The translations under genes and the position numbers were made by a program. A stretch of DNA of 64,000 nt from Planctomycetota bacterium (lineage in GTDB: Bacteria; Planctomycetota; Planctomycetia; Pirellulales; Lacipirellulaceae). How positions within the stretch are numbered: the first letter of the stretch is position 1; the number at the start of each line of letters is the position of its first letter. Location of the stretch: the NCBI GenBank assembly GCA_013152205.1, contig JAADGV010000053.1, forward strand, positions 62,001 to 126,000, read 5' to 3'. This document shows positions 54,150-63,103 of the stretch, piece after piece. Below the pieces are notes generated by a model that had not been told where the DNA came from, made no database searches, and saw nothing but the letters and a program-made list of their open reading frames with translations.

Positions 54150-55532
54150 CTAAGCGTTCAAGACCGTTTCTTGCTCTGTTGCTTGACTAGTAGCCGTGGC
54201 AGGGCGAAGTGTGCTTGGTTTTCGTGCGGAATCGATTTCGTCTTTGGCCTCTGATTCGGTTTGGGTATTGAACCGAACGGCAAAGGCTAGAAATGAAACG
54301 ACGGTTACCATTCCTCCAAGGATCAGTAGCACGGTGGGCCATGGTGTCGACCCTTTGAGTAAGAACCCTGCGGCAAATGCACCCGCGTTGCCCCCAGCGC
54401 CCACGATGCCAGCGACGGCCCCGAGCGCTTTCTTATTGATAAATGGCACGACTGAGAAAGTTGCGCCCTCGGACATCTGAACAAACAAGCTGAAAGCAAT
54501 CAGCGCTGGCAAGGCAACGACTAGTGTCGTCATCTGTGAGAAAAACATGAGCGCGATGCCTTCGCAAAACAGGGCAATAAACAGCCAAGTCACGCGGCCT
54601 TGAAGGCCCCATCTCGATCCAAACTGGTCGCCAGCAAATCCGCCCAGCGTTCTGGCAAAGAGGTTCATCAGGCCAAACGAAGCGGCCATCGCGCCGGCTG
54701 CCGCTAAGCTCATGTCGAAATAGTCGATAAAATACAGGGCGGCGATGTTGTGAATCGTAAGCTCCATACCAAAGCAGGCGCCGTAAATCGCAAACAGCAC
54801 CCAAACACGATAGTCGCGGCACGCATCGAAAAAGGCCCCGTTCGTTTTTTTGATGGAAGGCAATTTGCCTGCAGCGCGTAGCTCTTTGAAGTTGCCATCT
54901 GGGGCGTCCTGGGTAAAGCGGTAGTAGGCGATGCCGGTGAGCAGGCAAACAACGCCAGCCACCACCATTGATGCCCGCCAACTTATCGCTTCGCTGAAAC
55001 CTAACACGCCGACAAAGAGGGCAAAAATCACCGGCATTACGAATTGAGTGACCCCACCACCTAGGTTTCCCCATCCGGCTGACGTTGCGTTGACGGTTCC
55101 AACAATGTTCGGAGCGAACATAATTGAGGTGTGGTACTGCGTGATGACAAATGAGGCACCAATCATGCCAATCAATAGACGAAAGATCAGAAACGTCTGG
55201 AAATCGTGAGCCAAGCCGATGCCCATCACGGGCAAGGAACCTAGCACGAGAAGCCAGGTGTAGGTTAGTCGAGGTCCGTAGCGGTCGCACATCCATCCAA
55301 CGATTAAGCGCGCAAAGATGGTAACGGTGACCGAGGCGATAATCGACCAGCCGACTTGCTCTTTGGTTAGCGACAGTTCTTCGCGCACCACCGCCATCAG
55401 CGGCGCGATACCAAACCAAGCGAAGAAACAGAGGAAGAAGGCAAACCAGGACATGTGAAATGCTCTGATTTGCGGCATTCTGAGTTTGAAAAAGTTACCC
55501 CATAGCGAGGTGACCTTGTTTTGAATTTCCAT
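54150..55532 (-). CDS. narK: Nitrate/nitrite transporter, NarK family
   Basis: 460-residue major facilitator protein with 12 hydrophobic segments. The nitrate signature is NATSAGWGNLGGGVTQ (about 148-163), and a second copy-type motif is AGIVGAGGNAGAFAAG in the C-terminal half. It belongs to the NNP transporters that import nitrate or exchange nitrite. The N-terminus (MEIQNKVTSLWGNFF) and length are typical. Divergent from the nitrate-reduction genes, with a sigma-54-type promoter 163 bases upstream facing it. Confidence 0.95.
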   Translation of the reverse strand: MEIQNKVTSLWGNFFKLRMPQIRAFHMSWFAFFLCFFAWFGIAPLMAVVREELSLTKEQVGWSIIASVTVTIFARLIVGWMCDRYGPRLTYTWLLVLGSLPVMGIGLAHDFQTFLIFRLLIGMIGASFVITQYHTSIMFAPNIVGTVNATSAGWGNLGGGVTQFVMPVIFALFVGVLGFSEAISWRASMVVAGVVCLLTGIAYYRFTQDAPDGNFKELRAAGKLPSIKKTNGAFFDACRDYRVWVLFAIYGACFGMELTIHNIAALYFIDYFDMSLAAAGAMAASFGLMNLFARTLGGFAGDQFGSRWGLQGRVTWLFIALFCEGIALMFFSQMTTLVVALPALIAFSLFVQMSEGATFSVVPFINKKALGAVAGIVGAGGNAGAFAAGFLLKGSTPWPTVLLILGGMVTVVSFLAFAVRFNTQTESEAKDEIDSARKPSTLRPATATSQATEQETVLNA

Positions 55533-55655
55533 GGCAGTCCATCAATGAAGGGCGACCGTGCCCATCTGCGATTTTTCCTTTTATGAGAAACAACCTCTTA
55601 AAGAAAAACCTCAGTCCGCCATTTCACGATCAATACAAACTTGCTTAGGTAGGTT

Positions 55656-55670
55656 GGCACCTGAGGTGCC
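55656..55670. promoter_or_regulatory. Inverted repeat in the narK leader
   Basis: GGCACC-TGA-GGTGCC, within GTAGG...CTAC flanks. Read on the minus strand it would form a hairpin 125 bases before narK in its predicted leader. The GCACC/GGTGC half-sites resemble NtrC half-sites but the spacing (3) is not the usual 6. Role uncertain. Confidence 0.4.
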
Positions 55671-55694
55671 TACTACCGCTTAACCCGTTGATAA

Positions 55695-55710
55695 AGCAAC
55701 TCATGTGCCA
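55695..55710 (-). promoter_or_regulatory. Sigma-54 promoter facing narK
   Basis: Minus-strand TGGCACATGAGTTGCT. It has TGGCAC and TTGCT separated so that the -24 GG (55708) and -12 GC (55696) elements are 12 bases apart, matching the sigma-54 consensus at every critical base. The start of transcription would be near 55684, leaving a leader of about 150 bases before narK. Confidence 0.8.
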
Positions 55711-55766
55711 TTAGGCTCGACGGGTACTTACAAGCCCGCTCGGTTGGCATTTTGCCGAAAAAACGT

Positions 55767-55786
55767 GCTTTGCCTCGGGGCAATGC
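55767..55786. promoter_or_regulatory. Dyad between the two sigma-54 promoters (candidate activator site)
   Basis: GCTTTGCC-TCGG-GGCAATGC, arms matching at 7 of 8 positions. A second weaker dyad (TTGGCATTTTGCCGAA, 55744-55759) lies 8 bases away. Their position between divergent sigma-54 promoters, about 70-200 bases upstream of each, is where an activator such as NtrC would bind. The sequence is not the classical NtrC consensus, so binding is inference only. Confidence 0.45.
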
Positions 55787-55967
55787 GATCGCGAGGACAG
55801 CACGCTCTTGCTACCGACTGCCCGAAAGCGCGCATCGAGTGCTTAAGAGCGCCGCAGTAAAAATGTCTCAAGCTCATGCGACCTCCGTCGGAAACGATAA
55901 AACAAAACCCGAGGTTTGCAGTACTAGTGAATAGGAAAATAGGTATGCGATGGCCTCCGGAGAACCA

Positions 55968-55984
55968 TTGGCATGACGGTTGCA
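55968..55984 (+). promoter_or_regulatory. Sigma-54 promoter of the nitrate assimilation operon
   Basis: TTGGCATGACGGTTGCA: -24 GG at 55970-55971 and -12 GC at 55982-55983, with the 12-base spacing required. One consensus base (C to T in GGCAC) differs. It predicts a transcription start near 55995, 48 bases before the ATG at 56043. Confidence 0.82.
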
Positions 55985-56042
55985 TAAGCATGTCCGTTCT
56001 GTTGTAGATTCCCTTTTTTCGATTCACAAAATCATTCGGCCT

Positions 56043-57752
56043 ATGGCGACCATCGAAGAGCCAATACGGATTGGAGAGAGCCTTTCACTGGTCGATCGAT
56101 TACTCGACGAACAGCAACACATTACTGCCGCCGAGCGTTTCGCACAGTGTCATGTTGATGCTAGCGATCCGCTTCTTTCCCCTTACTATCAAGACTTAAT
56201 CCCCCTTTCCAAGCCTCTGCCTGGGGAGCAGTATGCGTTTGAAGTCGACCTCGACATCTGCTCAGGTTGCAAGTCGTGTGTCGTTGCCTGTCATAATCTG
56301 AACGGTTTAGACTCGGCTGAGCAGTGGCGCAGCGTAGGATTGCTGCACGGTGGCTCGGAACAATTGCCCGTCCTTCAGCATGTAACAACTGCCTGCCACC
56401 ACTGTATCGACCCGGCTTGCCTGAGCGGATGTCCGGTGATGGCGTATGACAAAGATCCCGTGACGGGGATCGTTCGCCATCTGGACGACCAGTGCATCGG
56501 TTGCCAGTACTGCGTCTTCATGTGCCCTTATGACGTGCCCCAGTACGACCCGGCCAAGGGGATCGTCCGAAAGTGCGACATGTGCCAAGATCGCCTGGCA
56601 GTCGGCGAAGCGCCGGCATGTGTGCAGTCGTGCCCCAATCAGGCTATTCAAATTCGCACCGTCAGTGTGGAATCGGTTATTGAAGAAAGCGAGTCGAACC
56701 AATTTCTGCCGACCGCTCCCGAGCCGGGTATTACTTTGCCAACAACGGTTTACAAATGCAGCAAGCCGCTTCCTCGCAATTTGCTGCCGGCAGACTATTT
56801 TTCGGCAAACCGGCAACATAGCCACTTGGCACTGGTGTTTATGTTGGTGCTGACTCAACTTTCGGTGGGCGCTTTTGTGGTGGGGCAGGCATTGGTTTCA
56901 GGCCCTTGGGCCGATCCACTGATGCTTACCACGATCCGCCCGACCTATGCCATTGCGGGGTTGGTGGTGGGCTTGGTTGGTATCCATGCCGCGGTGCTTC
57001 ATTTGGGGCGTCCGTTGTACGCATTTCGTGCTTTGCTAGGACTTCGCACTTCTTGGTTAAGTCGCGAGATTCTTGCCTTCGGGGTGTTTGCTGCATTCGC
57101 CCTTTCGAACGCGACCGCTGTATGGTTGGCGAAAGATCAGCCGAATCTCGTTCCGCTCGCCGATGGGTTGGGACTGATGACGGCCCTTAGCGGCGTGGCT
57201 GGCGTACTCTGCTCAGTGATGATCTACGTGAAAACTCACCGTCCGTTTTGGAGTGGGCACCGGACCGGCATGAAGTTTTCGCTCACTTGTGTCGTACTCG
57301 GGTTGCCAATTGCGCTGCTCGTATCGTTGGCTGCCTGTTATTGGAGTCGAGACTTGGAGGTGCCTTCGATCATGCAGAACTACGGGCAATCGCTTTGCCG
57401 ATGGTTGATGGCAGCGGTAGCAACCAAGCTTGCCCTGGAAGGTTCGGTACTGTTGTGGCTAAGGCAACGACGGTTCACGCCACTCAAACGCACTGCGTTG
57501 CTGCTAACTGGCGAGCTCAGCATGACCAACCTGCTGCGATACTTCTTCGGAATCATGGGCGGACTGCTGCTGCCCTTGGTGCTGCTCTCGGACAAAGCGA
57601 TTGCGGCAGGGGCTGATGGCTATCAGCCTTTGTTTGTTGGATTCATCGTGCTGTTGATTGCGGTCCTGCTGTTGATCGGAGAAATCATTGAGCGATATCT
57701 CTTTTTTGCTGCCTCGGTAGCGCCGAAAATGCCGGGGGCAGCGTGCGTATGA
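56043..57752 (+). CDS. Fused ferredoxin/membrane-anchor subunit of nitrate reductase (DmsB-DmsC-like)
   Basis: 569 residues from the ATG at 56043; the open frame extends upstream only from a TTG. The first 200 residues hold four cysteine motifs for four [4Fe-4S] clusters: [11 protein letters not shown] (73-83), [13 protein letters not shown] (118-130), [11 protein letters not shown] (151-161) and CDMC...CVQSC (178-196), as in DmsB. The C-terminal 300 residues have about eight membrane helices of the DmsC/NrfD-like anchor type (from [20 protein letters not shown] on). Encoded just before and overlapping nasA (ATGA), it would pass electrons from quinol to NasA. Fusion of the two subunits in one chain is notable. 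Confidence 0.85.
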
Positions 57753-60004
57753 CTTCGATTTTATCTAGCCCAGATAATTCCACGCGTTCTATTTTTGGCA
57801 AAACGATCCAGCCGCTCGTTCGCCAGTGGCATGGCCCACTGACAGACGAGCTACTACGCACGCCCGGGAAATTTGGTCTGGGACAAGTTCCCATCGATAA
57901 ACAGCCCGACGCAACGACGTCGATGGTTTGCGGGTATTGCTCCACCGGTTGCAAGCTCGATATTCACTTAAAAGATGACAAGGCGGTGAACCTTACGCCA
58001 ACGGTCGATTATCCAGTCAACACGGGCATGGCTTGCCCGAAGGGGTGGGAGGCGCTCTCCGTACTCCAAGCGAGTGATCGCGGCACGATGCCTTTGATGC
58101 GAGACAACCATGGCCGAATGGTGCCGGTGAGGTGGGACCGCGCAATGAGCACATTCTGCGACCGCTTCAAAGCACTACAAAGTAAACACGGCAATGCATC
58201 GGTTGCTTTTTTGAGTACCGGCCAAATTCCTACCGAAGAAATGGCCTACCTTGGTAGTTTGGCCAAGTTTGGCATGGGGTTATTGCATGGCGATAGCAAC
58301 ACGCGCCAGTGCATGGCCACGGCAGCGGTCGCCTACAAACAGGCGTTCGGCTTCGATGCTCCGCCTTACACCTACCAAGACTTTGAGGAGTCGGATGTCT
58401 TGGTACTCATAGGATCGAACCTCTGCCTCGCACACCCGATCATGTGGCAGCGAGTCTGTCGCAATCCCCATAACCCTGAAATTATCGTCCTCGACCCGCG
58501 CACCACCGAAACCGCTGCTGCTGCGACGCAACATCTGGCACTGCAACCAAAATCTGACCTTGAGTTGCTGTACGGGTTGGCCCACATTCTCATTGCCGAA
58601 GGATGGATCGACAACGAGTTCATTCAGCAGCATACGGACGATTACGCAGAGTTTGCTCGCCACGTGGGGAAATATACGCCCGAATTTGTCGAGCGGGTCA
58701 GCGGCATTTCGAAAGAACGCCTGTACTATCTTGCACGCACGATTCACAAGGGACAACGAGTTAGCTTTTGGTGGACGATGGGGGTCAACCAAAGCTATCA
58801 AGGCGTGCGGACTGCACAGGCGATCATCAATCTAGCGTTGATTACCGGGAACATGGGCCGTCCGGGAACGGGCGCCAATTCAATCACGGGCCAATGCAAT
58901 GCGATGGGATCGCGGTTGTTTAGCAATACAACCAACTTGCTCGGCGGTCACGATTTCAAAAACCCCGAGCATCGCCAGAAAGTTGCCCATACTCTTAACA
59001 TCAACGAAGATTGCATCCCTACCGAAGGTAGTTGGTCGTACGACCGGATCGTCGAGGGCATTCTCCGCGAGGAGATCAAGGGCTTATGGGTAATCGGCAC
59101 CAATCCGGCGCATTCGTGGATCAACCAGAACACTTGCAATGAGATCCTCGACCGACTGGACTTTCTCGTCGTCCAAGATATGTACCACTCGACTGAGACC
59201 GCCCAGCGAGCGGACTTGTACTTACCCGCCGCGGGTTGGGGAGAAAAGGAAGGCACCTTTATCAACTCGGAACGGCGGATCGGCGTTGTTAAAAAGGTTG
59301 CCAAGGCGCCCGGGCAGGCACTTTCAGATTTTTCGATTTTTCGACTGGCGGCCCACTATTGGGGCTGCGAGCGAATGTTCGCCGACTGGCAAGAGCCAGA
59401 AGATGTCTTTCAGTCGCTCAAGGAGCTTTCTCGAGAGCAGCCTTGCGACATAACGGGCATCGACGACTACCGGATGTTGGAAGACCACGGCGGCATCCAG
59501 TGGCCCTACCCCGAGGGATGCCAAGATGTCGAACCCCAGCGGCGACTGTATGCCGATGGGCAATTCTATCATCCGGATGGTCGGGCTCGGTTGCTATTTG
59601 AAGACCCTCGCAACATGCCTGAGCCGCCTAGCGTGCGTTATCCGTACCTCTTACTGACCGGCCGAGGCACCTCTTCGCAGTGGCATACCCAAACCCGAAC
59701 ATCGAAGTCAGAGGTATTGCAGACACTCTATCCGCAAGAAACCTACGTGGAAATCAGTCCCCAAGACGCTCGCCGCGAAGGCATCCACCCGAATAGTTGG
59801 GTCACGGTGGAGTCGCAACGCGGCAGCGTGAATGCCAAGGCCTTCGTGACTCCAACCATCCAGCCGGGGCAGGTTTTTATGCCCATGCACTATGCCGCTA
59901 CCAATCAACTTACGCTTGCTCACTTCGATCCGTACTCCCGGCAACCGTCCTACAAAGATTGTGCCGTACGGTTTTCATCTTCCCACCATTCGCCGATTGG
60001 TTAA
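57749..60004 (+). CDS. nasA: Assimilatory nitrate reductase, molybdopterin subunit NasA-like
   Basis: 751 residues from the ATG at 57749, whose ATGA overlaps the previous stop codon. N-terminal [4Fe-4S] cysteines are Cys61, Cys64, Cys68 and Cys96 ([20 protein letters not shown]). The putative molybdenum ligand is Cys188 in [15 protein letters not shown]. Further family motifs: [56 protein letters not shown] and the C-terminal [18 protein letters not shown]. Length fits NasA/NapA; no Tat signal is present, consistent with a cytoplasmic enzyme that uses the anchor subunit. It reduces nitrate to nitrite. Confidence 0.93.
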
Positions 60005-60046: not shown

Positions 60047-63000
60047 ATGCAATCGAACCAAGAAACCGTCGTCGTCATTGGCAATGGAATGGTCGGCCAT
60101 CGTTTCGTCGAAAAGCTCGTCGAATTCGACACGCTCAAACAATACAAGATCGTTACGTTTTGCGAAGAACCCCGAGCGGCATACGATCGTGTCGGTCTCA
60201 CTTCGTTCTTTGCTCACCGCGATGCCGAGCAATTGATGATCGCTCGTCTCGATTGGTACAAAGATCAGGGGGTCGAACTGCATCTGGGAGATCGCGCCTG
60301 CAAGGTCGATCGAAAAAAACGCGTGGTTCACTCCGACGCCGGCGAAAAAATTCCCTTCAGAAAAATCGTGCTAGCGACGGGGTCGTATCCGTTCGTGCCG
60401 CCGATCGAAGGAATCAAGCATCGCGGAGTCTTTGTCTATCGCACGATCGAAGATTTAGAGCGTATCATCAAATTCGGCCGCTCGTCGAAGCGATGCGCAG
60501 TGATTGGCGGTGGCTTGTTGGGGTTGGAAGCAGCGAAAGCGGCTTACGATCTAGGATTAGAAACCCATGTGATCGAATTCGCGTCGCGACTTATGCCTCG
60601 CCAGATCGACGACGATGGCTCGCGCATCTTGGTCCAAAAAATCGAGAAACTGGGGGTCCATGTCCACCTGAACAAAGGAACCAAAGAAATCCTGGGCGAC
60701 GGGCGTGTCGAACAAATGGTCTTTACCGATGGCGAGGTGCTGGATGTCGATATGATTATCGTCTCCTGTGGCATTCGCCCCCGCGACGATCTGGCTCGCG
60801 AATGTGGGCTGGAGGTGGGTGAGCGTGGAGGCGTGACGATCAACGATTCTCTGCAAACCTCTGATGCGGACATCTTTGCCGTTGGCGAAGTGGCTCAACA
60901 CAGCGGCATGGTTTACGGACTCGTGGCACCAGGCTACGAGATGGCTGAAATCTTGGCGATGAATCTCACCGGCAGCGAGGCCCAATTTACCGGGGCCGAT
61001 CTTTCAACCAAATTAAAGCTCATGGGGATCGATGTCGCCAGCTTTGGTGAGTACGAATTGCCTGCCAACCAGGCAACACCTTTGGTGTATGAAGATCCCA
61101 TCGGCGGAGTCTATAAGAAACTGTTCTTCACTCCAAGTGGCAAGCGGATATTGGGCGGCATCCTCGTGGGAGATGCTTCCGACTACGGAACGCTTTCGAT
61201 ACTCACCAAGAGCGGAGACGAGTTACCCTGTCAAGCGGGCGATTTACTGGGCGGCAGTAGTGCGGGGGCGACTGCCCTGCTTGGCGGAGCGGCTGCGATG
61301 CCGGACGACGCTCAAATCTGCTCGTGCAACAACGTCACGAAAGAAGACATTTGCAAAGCGATCGCAAAGCAAGACATCAACACCCTTACCGAACTGAAAG
61401 TATGCACCAAAGCAGGCACCGGCTGTGGCGGTTGTCTATCGATGGTAAACGACCTTTTCAAAGCCCAGATGAAAGAAGCGGGCGTCGAAGTAACCAACCA
61501 CCTCTGCGAACACTTCGCCTACACTCGCCAAGAGCTGTTTACTGTCGCCAAGGTGAAGCAGATTCGCACCTTCGAGGAGATGCTGAAGTTTCTTGGGCAC
61601 GGCAACGGCTGTGAAAACTGTAAGCCGATCATTGCTTCGATACTCGCCTCGCTCTGGAACGAAACGATTGTTGAACCTGAGCACCAGATGCTCCAAGACA
61701 CCAACGACCGTTTCCTGGCAAACGTACAGCGGGGCGGGTTGTATTCCGTCGTGCCTCGGATACCAGGGGGCGAAATTACTCCCGACAAGCTTCTTGTCAT
61801 TGGCAATGTCGCCAAAAAGTATGGCCTGTACACCAAGATTACTGGCGGTCAGCGCATCGATCTATTTGGCGCGCAGCAACACCAGCTTCCCGATATTTGG
61901 GAAGAATTGATCGAGGCTGGCTTCGAGAGCGGTCATGCGTATGGTAAATCGGTGAGAACCGTGAAGAGTTGTGTAGGCTCCAGTTGGTGCCGGTACGGCG
62001 TGCAAGATAGCGTTCGGTTTGCGATTGAAATCGAGAAACGGTATCGGGGCGTTCGGGCACCGCACAAGATCAAGTTCGCCGTCTCGGGTTGTATGCGAGA
62101 GTGTGCCGAGGCCCAGTGCAAGGACGTTGGCCTCATTGCGACTGAAAGCGGATACAATCTTTATGTTGGCGGCAACGGTGGTGCAAAACCACGACATGCC
62201 GATCTCTTTGCAACCGACGTCGACCGGCAGACGGCCATCAAATATATCGACCGGTTTCTGATGTATTACATCTTCACGGCCGACAAGCTCACCCGGACGG
62301 CCACATGGCTGGAACAAATTGAGGGGGGATTAGAACATGTCAAAGAGGTGGTGATCGACGACAAACTAGGGCTTTGCAACGAACTTGAAGGGCGCATGCA
62401 GCATTTGGTCGACACCTATCAATGCGAATGGAAAGCGGTGGTCGACGATCCTGAGAAACGCAAGCTCTTCAGGCAGTTCATCAACACCGAAGAGACCGAG
62501 CCGAGCATCGAGTTTGTTGCCGAACGCGATCAGCAACGCCCGGCCTATTGGCCGAAGGAGGGCGTTCGGTTAGATCAAATCAAGCTACCAAACGGCTCGC
62601 TGCTCGGAGAGACCGACAACAGCGATGCTGCTCGGAAGGCCCGTCGCGCCCAAGAAGAATGGGTTCCAGTCGGAACAGTCAACGACTTTCCAAGAGATGG
62701 CGGTGCCGCCATCAAATATGGCGACGTTCAAATTGCCGTGTTCAACTTCGCCACCCGCGGCGAGTGGTACGCGTGTCAAAATATGTGCCCACACAAAAAT
62801 GCTTTTGTACTCTCGCGAGGCATCCTCGGCGACGTAGGGACCGTGCCCAAAGTTGCGTGCCCACTTCACAAAAAGCCTTTTTCGTTGGAAACGGGCGAGA
62901 GCCTGTCGGGAGAAGACCTTTCGGTGAAAGTATTCCCGGTAAAAATTGATGGCGACAAAGTGTTAGTTAAATTACCGCCACAACCCCAACTCGACTCGCT

Positions 63001-63103
63001 ATTGGCAACCGAACTTCATCAGATTTGCGCCAACGATTCACGCGGCTGCACGTCGTGCTCTTCAACCGAGGAGGCTCGGGAACTTAGTGGCTCGGCGACG
63101 TAG
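60047..63103 (+). CDS. nirBD: Nitrite reductase NirB-NirD fusion
   Basis: 1018 residues from the ATG at 60047. In order: NAD(P)H/FAD oxidoreductase domain (VVVIGNGMVGHRFVEKL, IVLATGSYPFVPPIEG, AVIGGGLLGLEAAKAA); two BFD-like [2Fe-2S] regions (CSCNNVTKEDICKAI with CTKAGTGCGGC; then HLCEHFAYTRQEL with NGCENCKP); sulfite/nitrite reductase repeats with the siroheme/[4Fe-4S] motifs SCVGSSWCRYG and SGCMRECAEAQC; and a C-terminal Rieske domain (NMCPHKNAF, ACPLHKKPF), which normally is the separate NirD. The fusion gives both subunits in one chain. It reduces nitrite to ammonium with NAD(P)H. Last gene of the operon. Confidence 0.93.
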   Translation: MQSNQETVVVIGNGMVGHRFVEKLVEFDTLKQYKIVTFCEEPRAAYDRVGLTSFFAHRDAEQLMIARLDWYKDQGVELHLGDRACKVDRKKRVVHSDAGEKIPFRKIVLATGSYPFVPPIEGIKHRGVFVYRTIEDLERIIKFGRSSKRCAVIGGGLLGLEAAKAAYDLGLETHVIEFASRLMPRQIDDDGSRILVQKIEKLGVHVHLNKGTKEILGDGRVEQMVFTDGEVLDVDMIIVSCGIRPRDDLARECGLEVGERGGVTINDSLQTSDADIFAVGEVAQHSGMVYGLVAPGYEMAEILAMNLTGSEAQFTGADLSTKLKLMGIDVASFGEYELPANQATPLVYEDPIGGVYKKLFFTPSGKRILGGILVGDASDYGTLSILTKSGDELPCQAGDLLGGSSAGATALLGGAAAMPDDAQICSCNNVTKEDICKAIAKQDINTLTELKVCTKAGTGCGGCLSMVNDLFKAQMKEAGVEVTNHLCEHFAYTRQELFTVAKVKQIRTFEEMLKFLGHGNGCENCKPIIASILASLWNETIVEPEHQMLQDTNDRFLANVQRGGLYSVVPRIPGGEITPDKLLVIGNVAKKYGLYTKITGGQRIDLFGAQQHQLPDIWEELIEAGFESGHAYGKSVRTVKSCVGSSWCRYGVQDSVRFAIEIEKRYRGVRAPHKIKFAVSGCMRECAEAQCKDVGLIATESGYNLYVGGNGGAKPRHADLFATDVDRQTAIKYIDRFLMYYIFTADKLTRTATWLEQIEGGLEHVKEVVIDDKLGLCNELEGRMQHLVDTYQCEWKAVVDDPEKRKLFRQFINTEETEPSIEFVAERDQQRPAYWPKEGVRLDQIKLPNGSLLGETDNSDAARKARRAQEEWVPVGTVNDFPRDGGAAIKYGDVQIAVFNFATRGEWYACQNMCPHKNAFVLSRGILGDVGTVPKVACPLHKKPFSLETGESLSGEDLSVKVFPVKIDGDKVLVKLPPQPQLDSLLATELHQICANDSRGCTSCSSTEEARELSGSAT

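Follow-up and report, generated by a model that had tools for sequence, protein, structure and literature searches.

A bidirectional region with sigma-54 promoter elements between narK and the nas operon of a planctomycete, and evidence for a similar module at glnA and amtB-glnK

In a 64-kb stretch of a Planctomycetota bacterium genome (contig JAADGV010000053.1; hereafter the window, meaning the whole stretch analysed), a nitrate assimilation (nas) operon and the divergent transporter gene narK are separated by 510 bp of intergenic DNA. The sequence evidence makes it highly likely that this DNA is a bidirectional sigma-54 control region, belonging to an NtrC-like regulon that would also include glnA and amtB-glnK and be served by one enhancer-binding protein (EBP). 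The region carries two opposed -24/-12 elements, TTGGCATGACGGTTGCA facing nas (55968-55984, plus strand) and ATGGCACATGAGTTGCT facing narK (55695-55711, minus strand, read from 55711 to 55695), with a tandem pair of TGC dyads between them. Shown here by computation are the elements with their spacing, statistics and conservation, as well as the rpoN and EBP genes of the genome.

Opposed -24/-12 elements between narK and nas

The original prediction had placed a sigma-54 promoter at 55968-55984 on the plus strand, and the 17-mer is indeed present there. It differs at one position from the consensus used at that time, TTGGCACG-N4-TTGCA, matches TTGGCAYG-N4-TTGCA exactly, and fits the strict pattern TGGCAY-N5-TTGCW, with GG and GC at the fixed spacing. 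The distance to the ATG at 56043 needed a small adjustment: 58 bases separate it from the last base of the element, and the 59 given before counts as far as the A of the ATG. Within the window, 37 sites match TTGGCACG-N4-TTGCA with at most three mismatches, compared with 25.5 ± 4.8 in shuffled sequence; the nas element is the best scoring of these and alone among them has at most one mismatch. Its score was equalled in none of 1000 first-order shuffles of the 260 bp upstream of the first gene (p = 0.001). Genome-wide (a 4.6-Mb assembly in 130 contigs), TTGGCAYG-N4-TTGCA has 3 exact matches, including the nas element, and 24 matches with at most one mismatch, against 10 for a reversed control pattern. 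Very probably, then, nitrate assimilation has a genuine sigma-54 promoter in TTGGCATGACGGTTGCA. Transcription would start near 55995, with a predicted leader of about 48 bases.

The opposing element, which the original prediction had overlooked together with the tandem dyads and the glnA and amtB-glnK modules described below, ends 162 bases before the narK ATG and predicts a start near 55684. The strict pattern TGGCAY-N5-TTGCW has 27 matches in the genome and its control 7, and two of the 27 share the narK/nas intergenic region, one in each direction. Because 18 of the remaining 25 overlap an open reading frame (ORF) of at least 90 codons, promoter sequence alone is insufficient, and conservation and the enhancer must decide. 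The same overlaps favour the explanation that the nas match is a product of chance and that the operon is under another sigma factor. We consider this very improbable, since it would leave as coincidences a second strict site in the opposite direction, tandem dyads between the two, a near-fixed geometry at glnA, and local conservation in a region that otherwise aligns poorly. A search for a sigma-70-type promoter found 0 where 0.5 would be expected by chance, so that this null result is uninformative. A 15-base inverted repeat, GGCACCTGAGGTGCC, with 6-base arms and a 3-base spacer, lies at 55656-55670, inside the predicted leader of narK on the downstream side of its promoter; it is a possible operator or hairpin.

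Conservation was measured in 13 divergent regions, namely the window and 12 other loci, for some of which gene starts were estimated; the transporter is a distant MFS gene in one of them (L020) and a 45% NarK in another (L067). Six loci (L100, L104, L109, L111, L112 and L114) were left out of all counts. The nas-side element was found at p ≤ 0.05 in 7 of the 13 regions and at 0.053-0.078 in three more, giving 10 of 13 at p < 0.08. The narK-side element reached p ≤ 0.05 in 10 of 13, with L017 in addition at 0.053. Counted matches scored 18.5-22.5; when the same stretches were read in the wrong direction, the best score stayed within 14-18.5 in 24 of 26 cases and reached 19.5-20 in the other two. 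When the window is aligned with four relatives, the nas element appears as a conserved island amid poorly aligning sequence. Control of assimilation by sigma-54 and an EBP, as first proposed from the window alone, is therefore supported. The genome encodes rpoN and ten strong EBPs, and nine of the 12 other divergent loci have the nas-side element at p < 0.08, six of them at p ≤ 0.05; an absence of the element from close relatives with this operon, which the original prediction had named as grounds for its refutation, is not what is observed.

More distant loci give a less uniform picture. Two broad upstream scans, with different weights, treated the iron-sulphur (Fe-S) gene as the first gene everywhere; among 79 loci (L066 was excluded as too short), 21 had a match at p ≤ 0.05 and 11 at p ≤ 0.01. 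The 58 loci without a match at p ≤ 0.05 would favour chance, but these misses mean little because the first gene differs in many loci: operon order varies in many distant relatives, with nirBD, narK or nrtA first. Of 12 family members with nrtA or narK at the head of the operon, 7 reach p ≤ 0.05 for a sigma-54-like site, and in 9 an exact dyad lies no more than 300 bp from the best site. Pairs of exact dyads 21 bp apart precede the operons of G040 and G007 (promoter p of 0.06 and 0.09). Among 12 further nas loci with a sigma-54-like site, several of them from Verrucomicrobiota, L027 and L092 have a tandem and L042 has one exact dyad; no dyad was found in the other nine (L021, L026, L037, L047, L050, L052, L057, L062 and L088).

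A putative enhancer shared by the two promoters

The dyad nearer nas is an exact TGC-N11-GCA at 55840-55856, and the one nearer narK, at 55819-55834, is TGC-N10-GCA, one base shorter, with its centre 21.5 bp from that of the other (dyads are given without strand). From this pair it is 112 bases to the TGG of the nas -24 element and 108 to that of narK. Another exact TGC-N11-GCA dyad at 55766-55782 lies outside any 21-22 bp pair and is, with some uncertainty, a possible accessory site.

In the 13 divergent regions, exact TGC-N11-GCA occurs 21 times, compared with 4.5 ± 2.0 in first-order shuffles, and at least once in 12 of the regions, where 3.9 would be expected. Spacers other than 11, from 0 to 20, occur 3-11 times each (4 for N10 and 6 for N12). 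Tandem dyads with centres 21-22 bp apart are present in 11 of 13 regions against an expectation of 1.4. In this test a dyad could lack one anchor base, or else keep all of them around a spacer of 10 or 12; the N10 tolerance was introduced only after the dyad at 55819-55834 had been seen.

The same module at glnA and amtB-glnK

Elsewhere in the genome, the combination recurs at nitrogen genes. A tandem dyad lies 40-220 bp upstream of four strict sites among the 27, where 0.59 would be expected: those of glnA, amtB-glnK, narK and nas, the last two counting one common dyad pair twice, as two of the four tandems. The dyads at amtB agree with the motif at 5 of 6 anchor bases.

We then counted exact 22-bp tandems across 43 genomes of the family and found 52 places, compared with 16 for a control pattern. 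Twenty of the 52 are upstream of glnA (GSII-type, by our reading), in 20 of the 24 genomes with this glnA; because the pattern was set after six of the twenty had already been seen, the fresh count is 14 of 18 genomes. Another of the 52 is the nas region of G004. In the stretch from dyad to glnA, a sigma-54 site at p ≤ 0.03 is present in all 19 scored loci, at a gap of 86-111 bp that is 96-98 bp in 15 of them, and the best score on the opposite strand is 18.5. The twentieth glnA locus, L352, has its sigma-54 site at a gap of 98. These figures supersede an earlier scan limited to the 400 bp before glnA, in which the gene start was located for 17 of 24 loci; 7 of the 17 had a sigma-54 match (p ≤ 0.05) and 8 an exact dyad. 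Outside glnA and nas there are 31 tandem places. Of the 19 inspected, 11 are within an ORF of at least 100 codons, and four (L337, L343, L344 and L350) have a site scoring 20 or more beside them; L337 precedes a glutamine synthetase of GSIII size. Paired dyadic activator sites are found about 100 bp upstream of sigma-54 promoters at several nitrogen genes. The recurrence of one enhancer and promoter design at glnA and the ammonium transporter suggests an NtrC-like regulon in planctomycetes.

We infer from this arrangement how the region may work, including the binding, the looping, the nitrogen signal and the use of a single EBP at all sites. Sigma-54 RNA polymerase would sit at both opposed promoters, and an EBP with a Fis-type helix-turn-helix would bind the tandem dyads (55819-55856) in the form of two dimers that share a face of the helix. 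Bound there, about 110 bp away from either promoter, it would open both by looping the DNA and hydrolysing ATP. Nitrogen shortage would be the trigger, and the same EBP would act at glnA and amtB-glnK; one EBP at glnA, amtB-glnK and nas would make this an NtrC-like nitrogen regulon. We give an even chance to the broader proposition that planctomycetes have evolved a global sigma-54 nitrogen regulon in which an activator that is not an NtrC orthologue follows the same logic, through TGC-N11-GCA dyads in tandem, spaced by 22 bp and set at an almost constant distance from the glnA, amtB-glnK, nrtA and nas promoters, with one pair firing both nas and narK.

Candidate activators and competing explanations

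Sigma-54 requires an EBP. The whole genome has one match to the RpoN DNA-binding domain (E = 2.6e-62), in addition to the ten strong EBP genes. Six of the ten were scored against the NtrC equivalog model (TIGR01818); the EBP on C39 has the best NCBIfam ntrC score, 457.5 bits, and the candidate activator is better described as one that would work like NtrC than as NtrC itself. The C39 EBP and the C23 EBP both lack a reciprocal best hit in G004, a genome that keeps the nas module and whose assembly is about 90% complete. For each of the other eight, all four genomes in the comparison contain a reciprocal best hit, so that EBP presence is not discriminating; in G001 the match to one of them, an EBP with a protoglobin domain, spans 319 residues only, and one G001 EBP was outside the comparison. 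In the stretches inspected, no convincing tandem dyad precedes any EBP gene.

Several observations weigh against a common NtrC-like module. None of the six EBPs scored meets the NtrC equivalog cut-off of 558.6 bits, and within the available flanks no EBP gene lies beside the nas operon except in L067. Among the divergent regions, L018 has neither promoter clearly, L024 has the narK-side element only, L023 the nas-side element only, and the nas-side element of L067 is poor or missing; L015 and L067 have no tandem pair, though L015, from Adhaeretor mobilis HG15A2, carries both promoters and single exact dyads. In the set led by nrtA or narK, no exact dyad precedes the best site in G010, G042 or G009, and the glnA genes of G001, G002, G016 and G032 are without an exact tandem. 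When exact N11 dyads alone are counted, the promoters that stand out are those of glnA, nas and narK, and amtB-glnK is not among them. Three of the four tandems in this genome needed tolerances set after inspection, because the distal dyad of the window is N10 and the amtB dyads match 5 of 6 anchors. The dyads themselves carry little sequence information at their inner positions, and when trinucleotide dyads with spacers of 4-15 are ranked, TGC-N11-GCA (21) comes second to GCA-N7-TGC (25), an abundance that may partly reflect tandem copies.

The last two points bear on a second explanation, in which the sigma-54 promoters are real but the TGC dyads are the target of a regulator other than an EBP, for instance a repressor or an activator responding to nitrate, and the EBP has its sites elsewhere. 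Variable inner positions, the frequency of other dyads in the same regions and the failure of the comparisons above to single out a cognate EBP are all compatible with it. We nevertheless regard it as improbable: sigma-54 needs an EBP in any case, and the 96-98 bp from dyad to -24 at most glnA loci, together with the 22-bp phasing, suits an enhancer-bound activator.

A third explanation, that the module is common but that nas/narK and glnA/amtB respond to different EBPs with similar dyads, is unlikely though it deserves more weight. TGC-like half sites are common targets of EBPs that carry Fis-type domains, and at the inner positions the nas dyads fit a matrix derived from glnA only modestly above background (p = 0.0007). 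The two groups have, however, the same spacer and tandem spacing and a similar distance to -24, which argues for one EBP acting on both.

Some EBPs and their surroundings were recorded in passing. The L067 locus (bacterium HR30), a nas locus without tandem dyads, has its EBP gene at 6-677 on the minus strand, downstream of narK. The C112 EBP has a neighbouring kinase-like ORF with, by our reading, an NtrB-like motif. Among solved structures, Fis is closest to the DNA-binding domain of the C88 EBP. The protoglobin EBP (C109:4312-7812) has an N-terminal protoglobin domain (E = 2.5e-33) followed by sigma-54 AAA+ and Fis-type domains; it might act as a haem-based sensor that drives sigma-54 directly. 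Between this gene and ORFs of which one reads, to us, like a CBS-domain protein, there is a sigma-54-like site (L143).

Genes of the nas operon and other sites

The first gene of the operon (56043-57752, plus strand) joins a DmsB-like Fe-S domain (Fer4_11 and related models) to a DmsC-type membrane anchor. It is followed on the same strand by a NasC-like molybdopterin oxidoreductase (57743-60004), the probable assimilatory nitrate reductase, and by a fused NirB-NirD assimilatory nitrite reductase (60047-63103) that scores above the cut-off for both the NirB and the NirD model. The NasC-like protein is below the NCBIfam cut-offs: it scores 441.1 bits with the NasC model (cut-off 1100) and more, 506.0 bits, with a formate dehydrogenase model (cut-off 666.3). 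The divergent NarK-family nitrate/nitrite transporter (54150-55532, minus strand) scores 305.8 bits with the NarK model, cut-off 311.7. Transporter, NasC-like reductase and NirBD thus occur together, as in an assimilatory nitrate reduction operon. The product of the first gene and NasC may form a membrane-bound, quinol-driven assimilatory nitrate reductase.

By our naming of the genes, ten relatives' loci (L154-L163) have an operon in which an nrtA-like gene comes first, then transporter genes, then Fe-S/DmsC and nasC, and in at least six of them a protein of about 290-370 aa with no family assigned precedes the Fe-S/DmsC gene. Two identical strict -24/-12 matches lie 168 bases apart in one ORF (C118:83956 and 84124), probably as a repeat within coding sequence.

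Comparison with known systems

Planctomycetes are common in marine and soil nitrogen cycling; to our knowledge, their nitrogen sensing and control have been little studied. In the titles and abstract openings searched, with subscription journals mostly outside the scope, no planctomycete sigma-54 nitrogen regulon was described. The module supplies a concrete candidate regulon of glnA, amtB-glnK, nas and narK, together with a candidate motif for binding and predictions of where transcription starts.

A 2025 survey, aRpoNDB, in the portion drawn on here, predicts that Planctomycetia use sigma-54 for chaperones and other genes (PMC12316311). The present genome agrees, with a sigma-54-like site, TTGGCACGCTGCTTGCG (C96:37458-37474), before a gene that we read as groEL-like. 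The same portion places sigma-54 nitrogen control in Pseudomonadota and some other classes, does not list Planctomycetia among them, and calls such control absent in the rest examined (PMC12316311); the nitrogen modules of this family argue against that absence outside the classes it names. That portion also names control of nas operons by NasT antitermination (PMC12316311). The target operon is of the same kind here, but no RNA family reached gathering score in 55400-56150, where the one match was at chance level, and the predicted leader is short.

The closest parallel is the NtrC/sigma-54 system of Pseudomonadota, with which the module shares -24/-12 promoters, paired activator sites about 100 bp upstream, and glutamine synthetase, ammonium transport and nitrate/nitrite assimilation as targets. 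The centres of E. coli NtrC sites are about 32 bp apart. At E. coli glnA, the part of PMC7408454 used here places two NtrC sites in tandem, about 90 and 140 bp before the start, figures that imply about 50 bp; the dyads here are TGC-N11-GCA with tandem centres 22 bp apart. The part of PMC3224663 used here states the -24/-12 consensus and reports, for Xylella, a glnA start that depends on rpoN. Here, by comparison, the phylum is another one, glnA reads as GSII-type, a single enhancer pair would stand between divergent promoters, and the EBPs scored fall short of the ntrC equivalog. In its components and their layout, the module fits the activation of sigma-54 promoters by paired dimers of an EBP.
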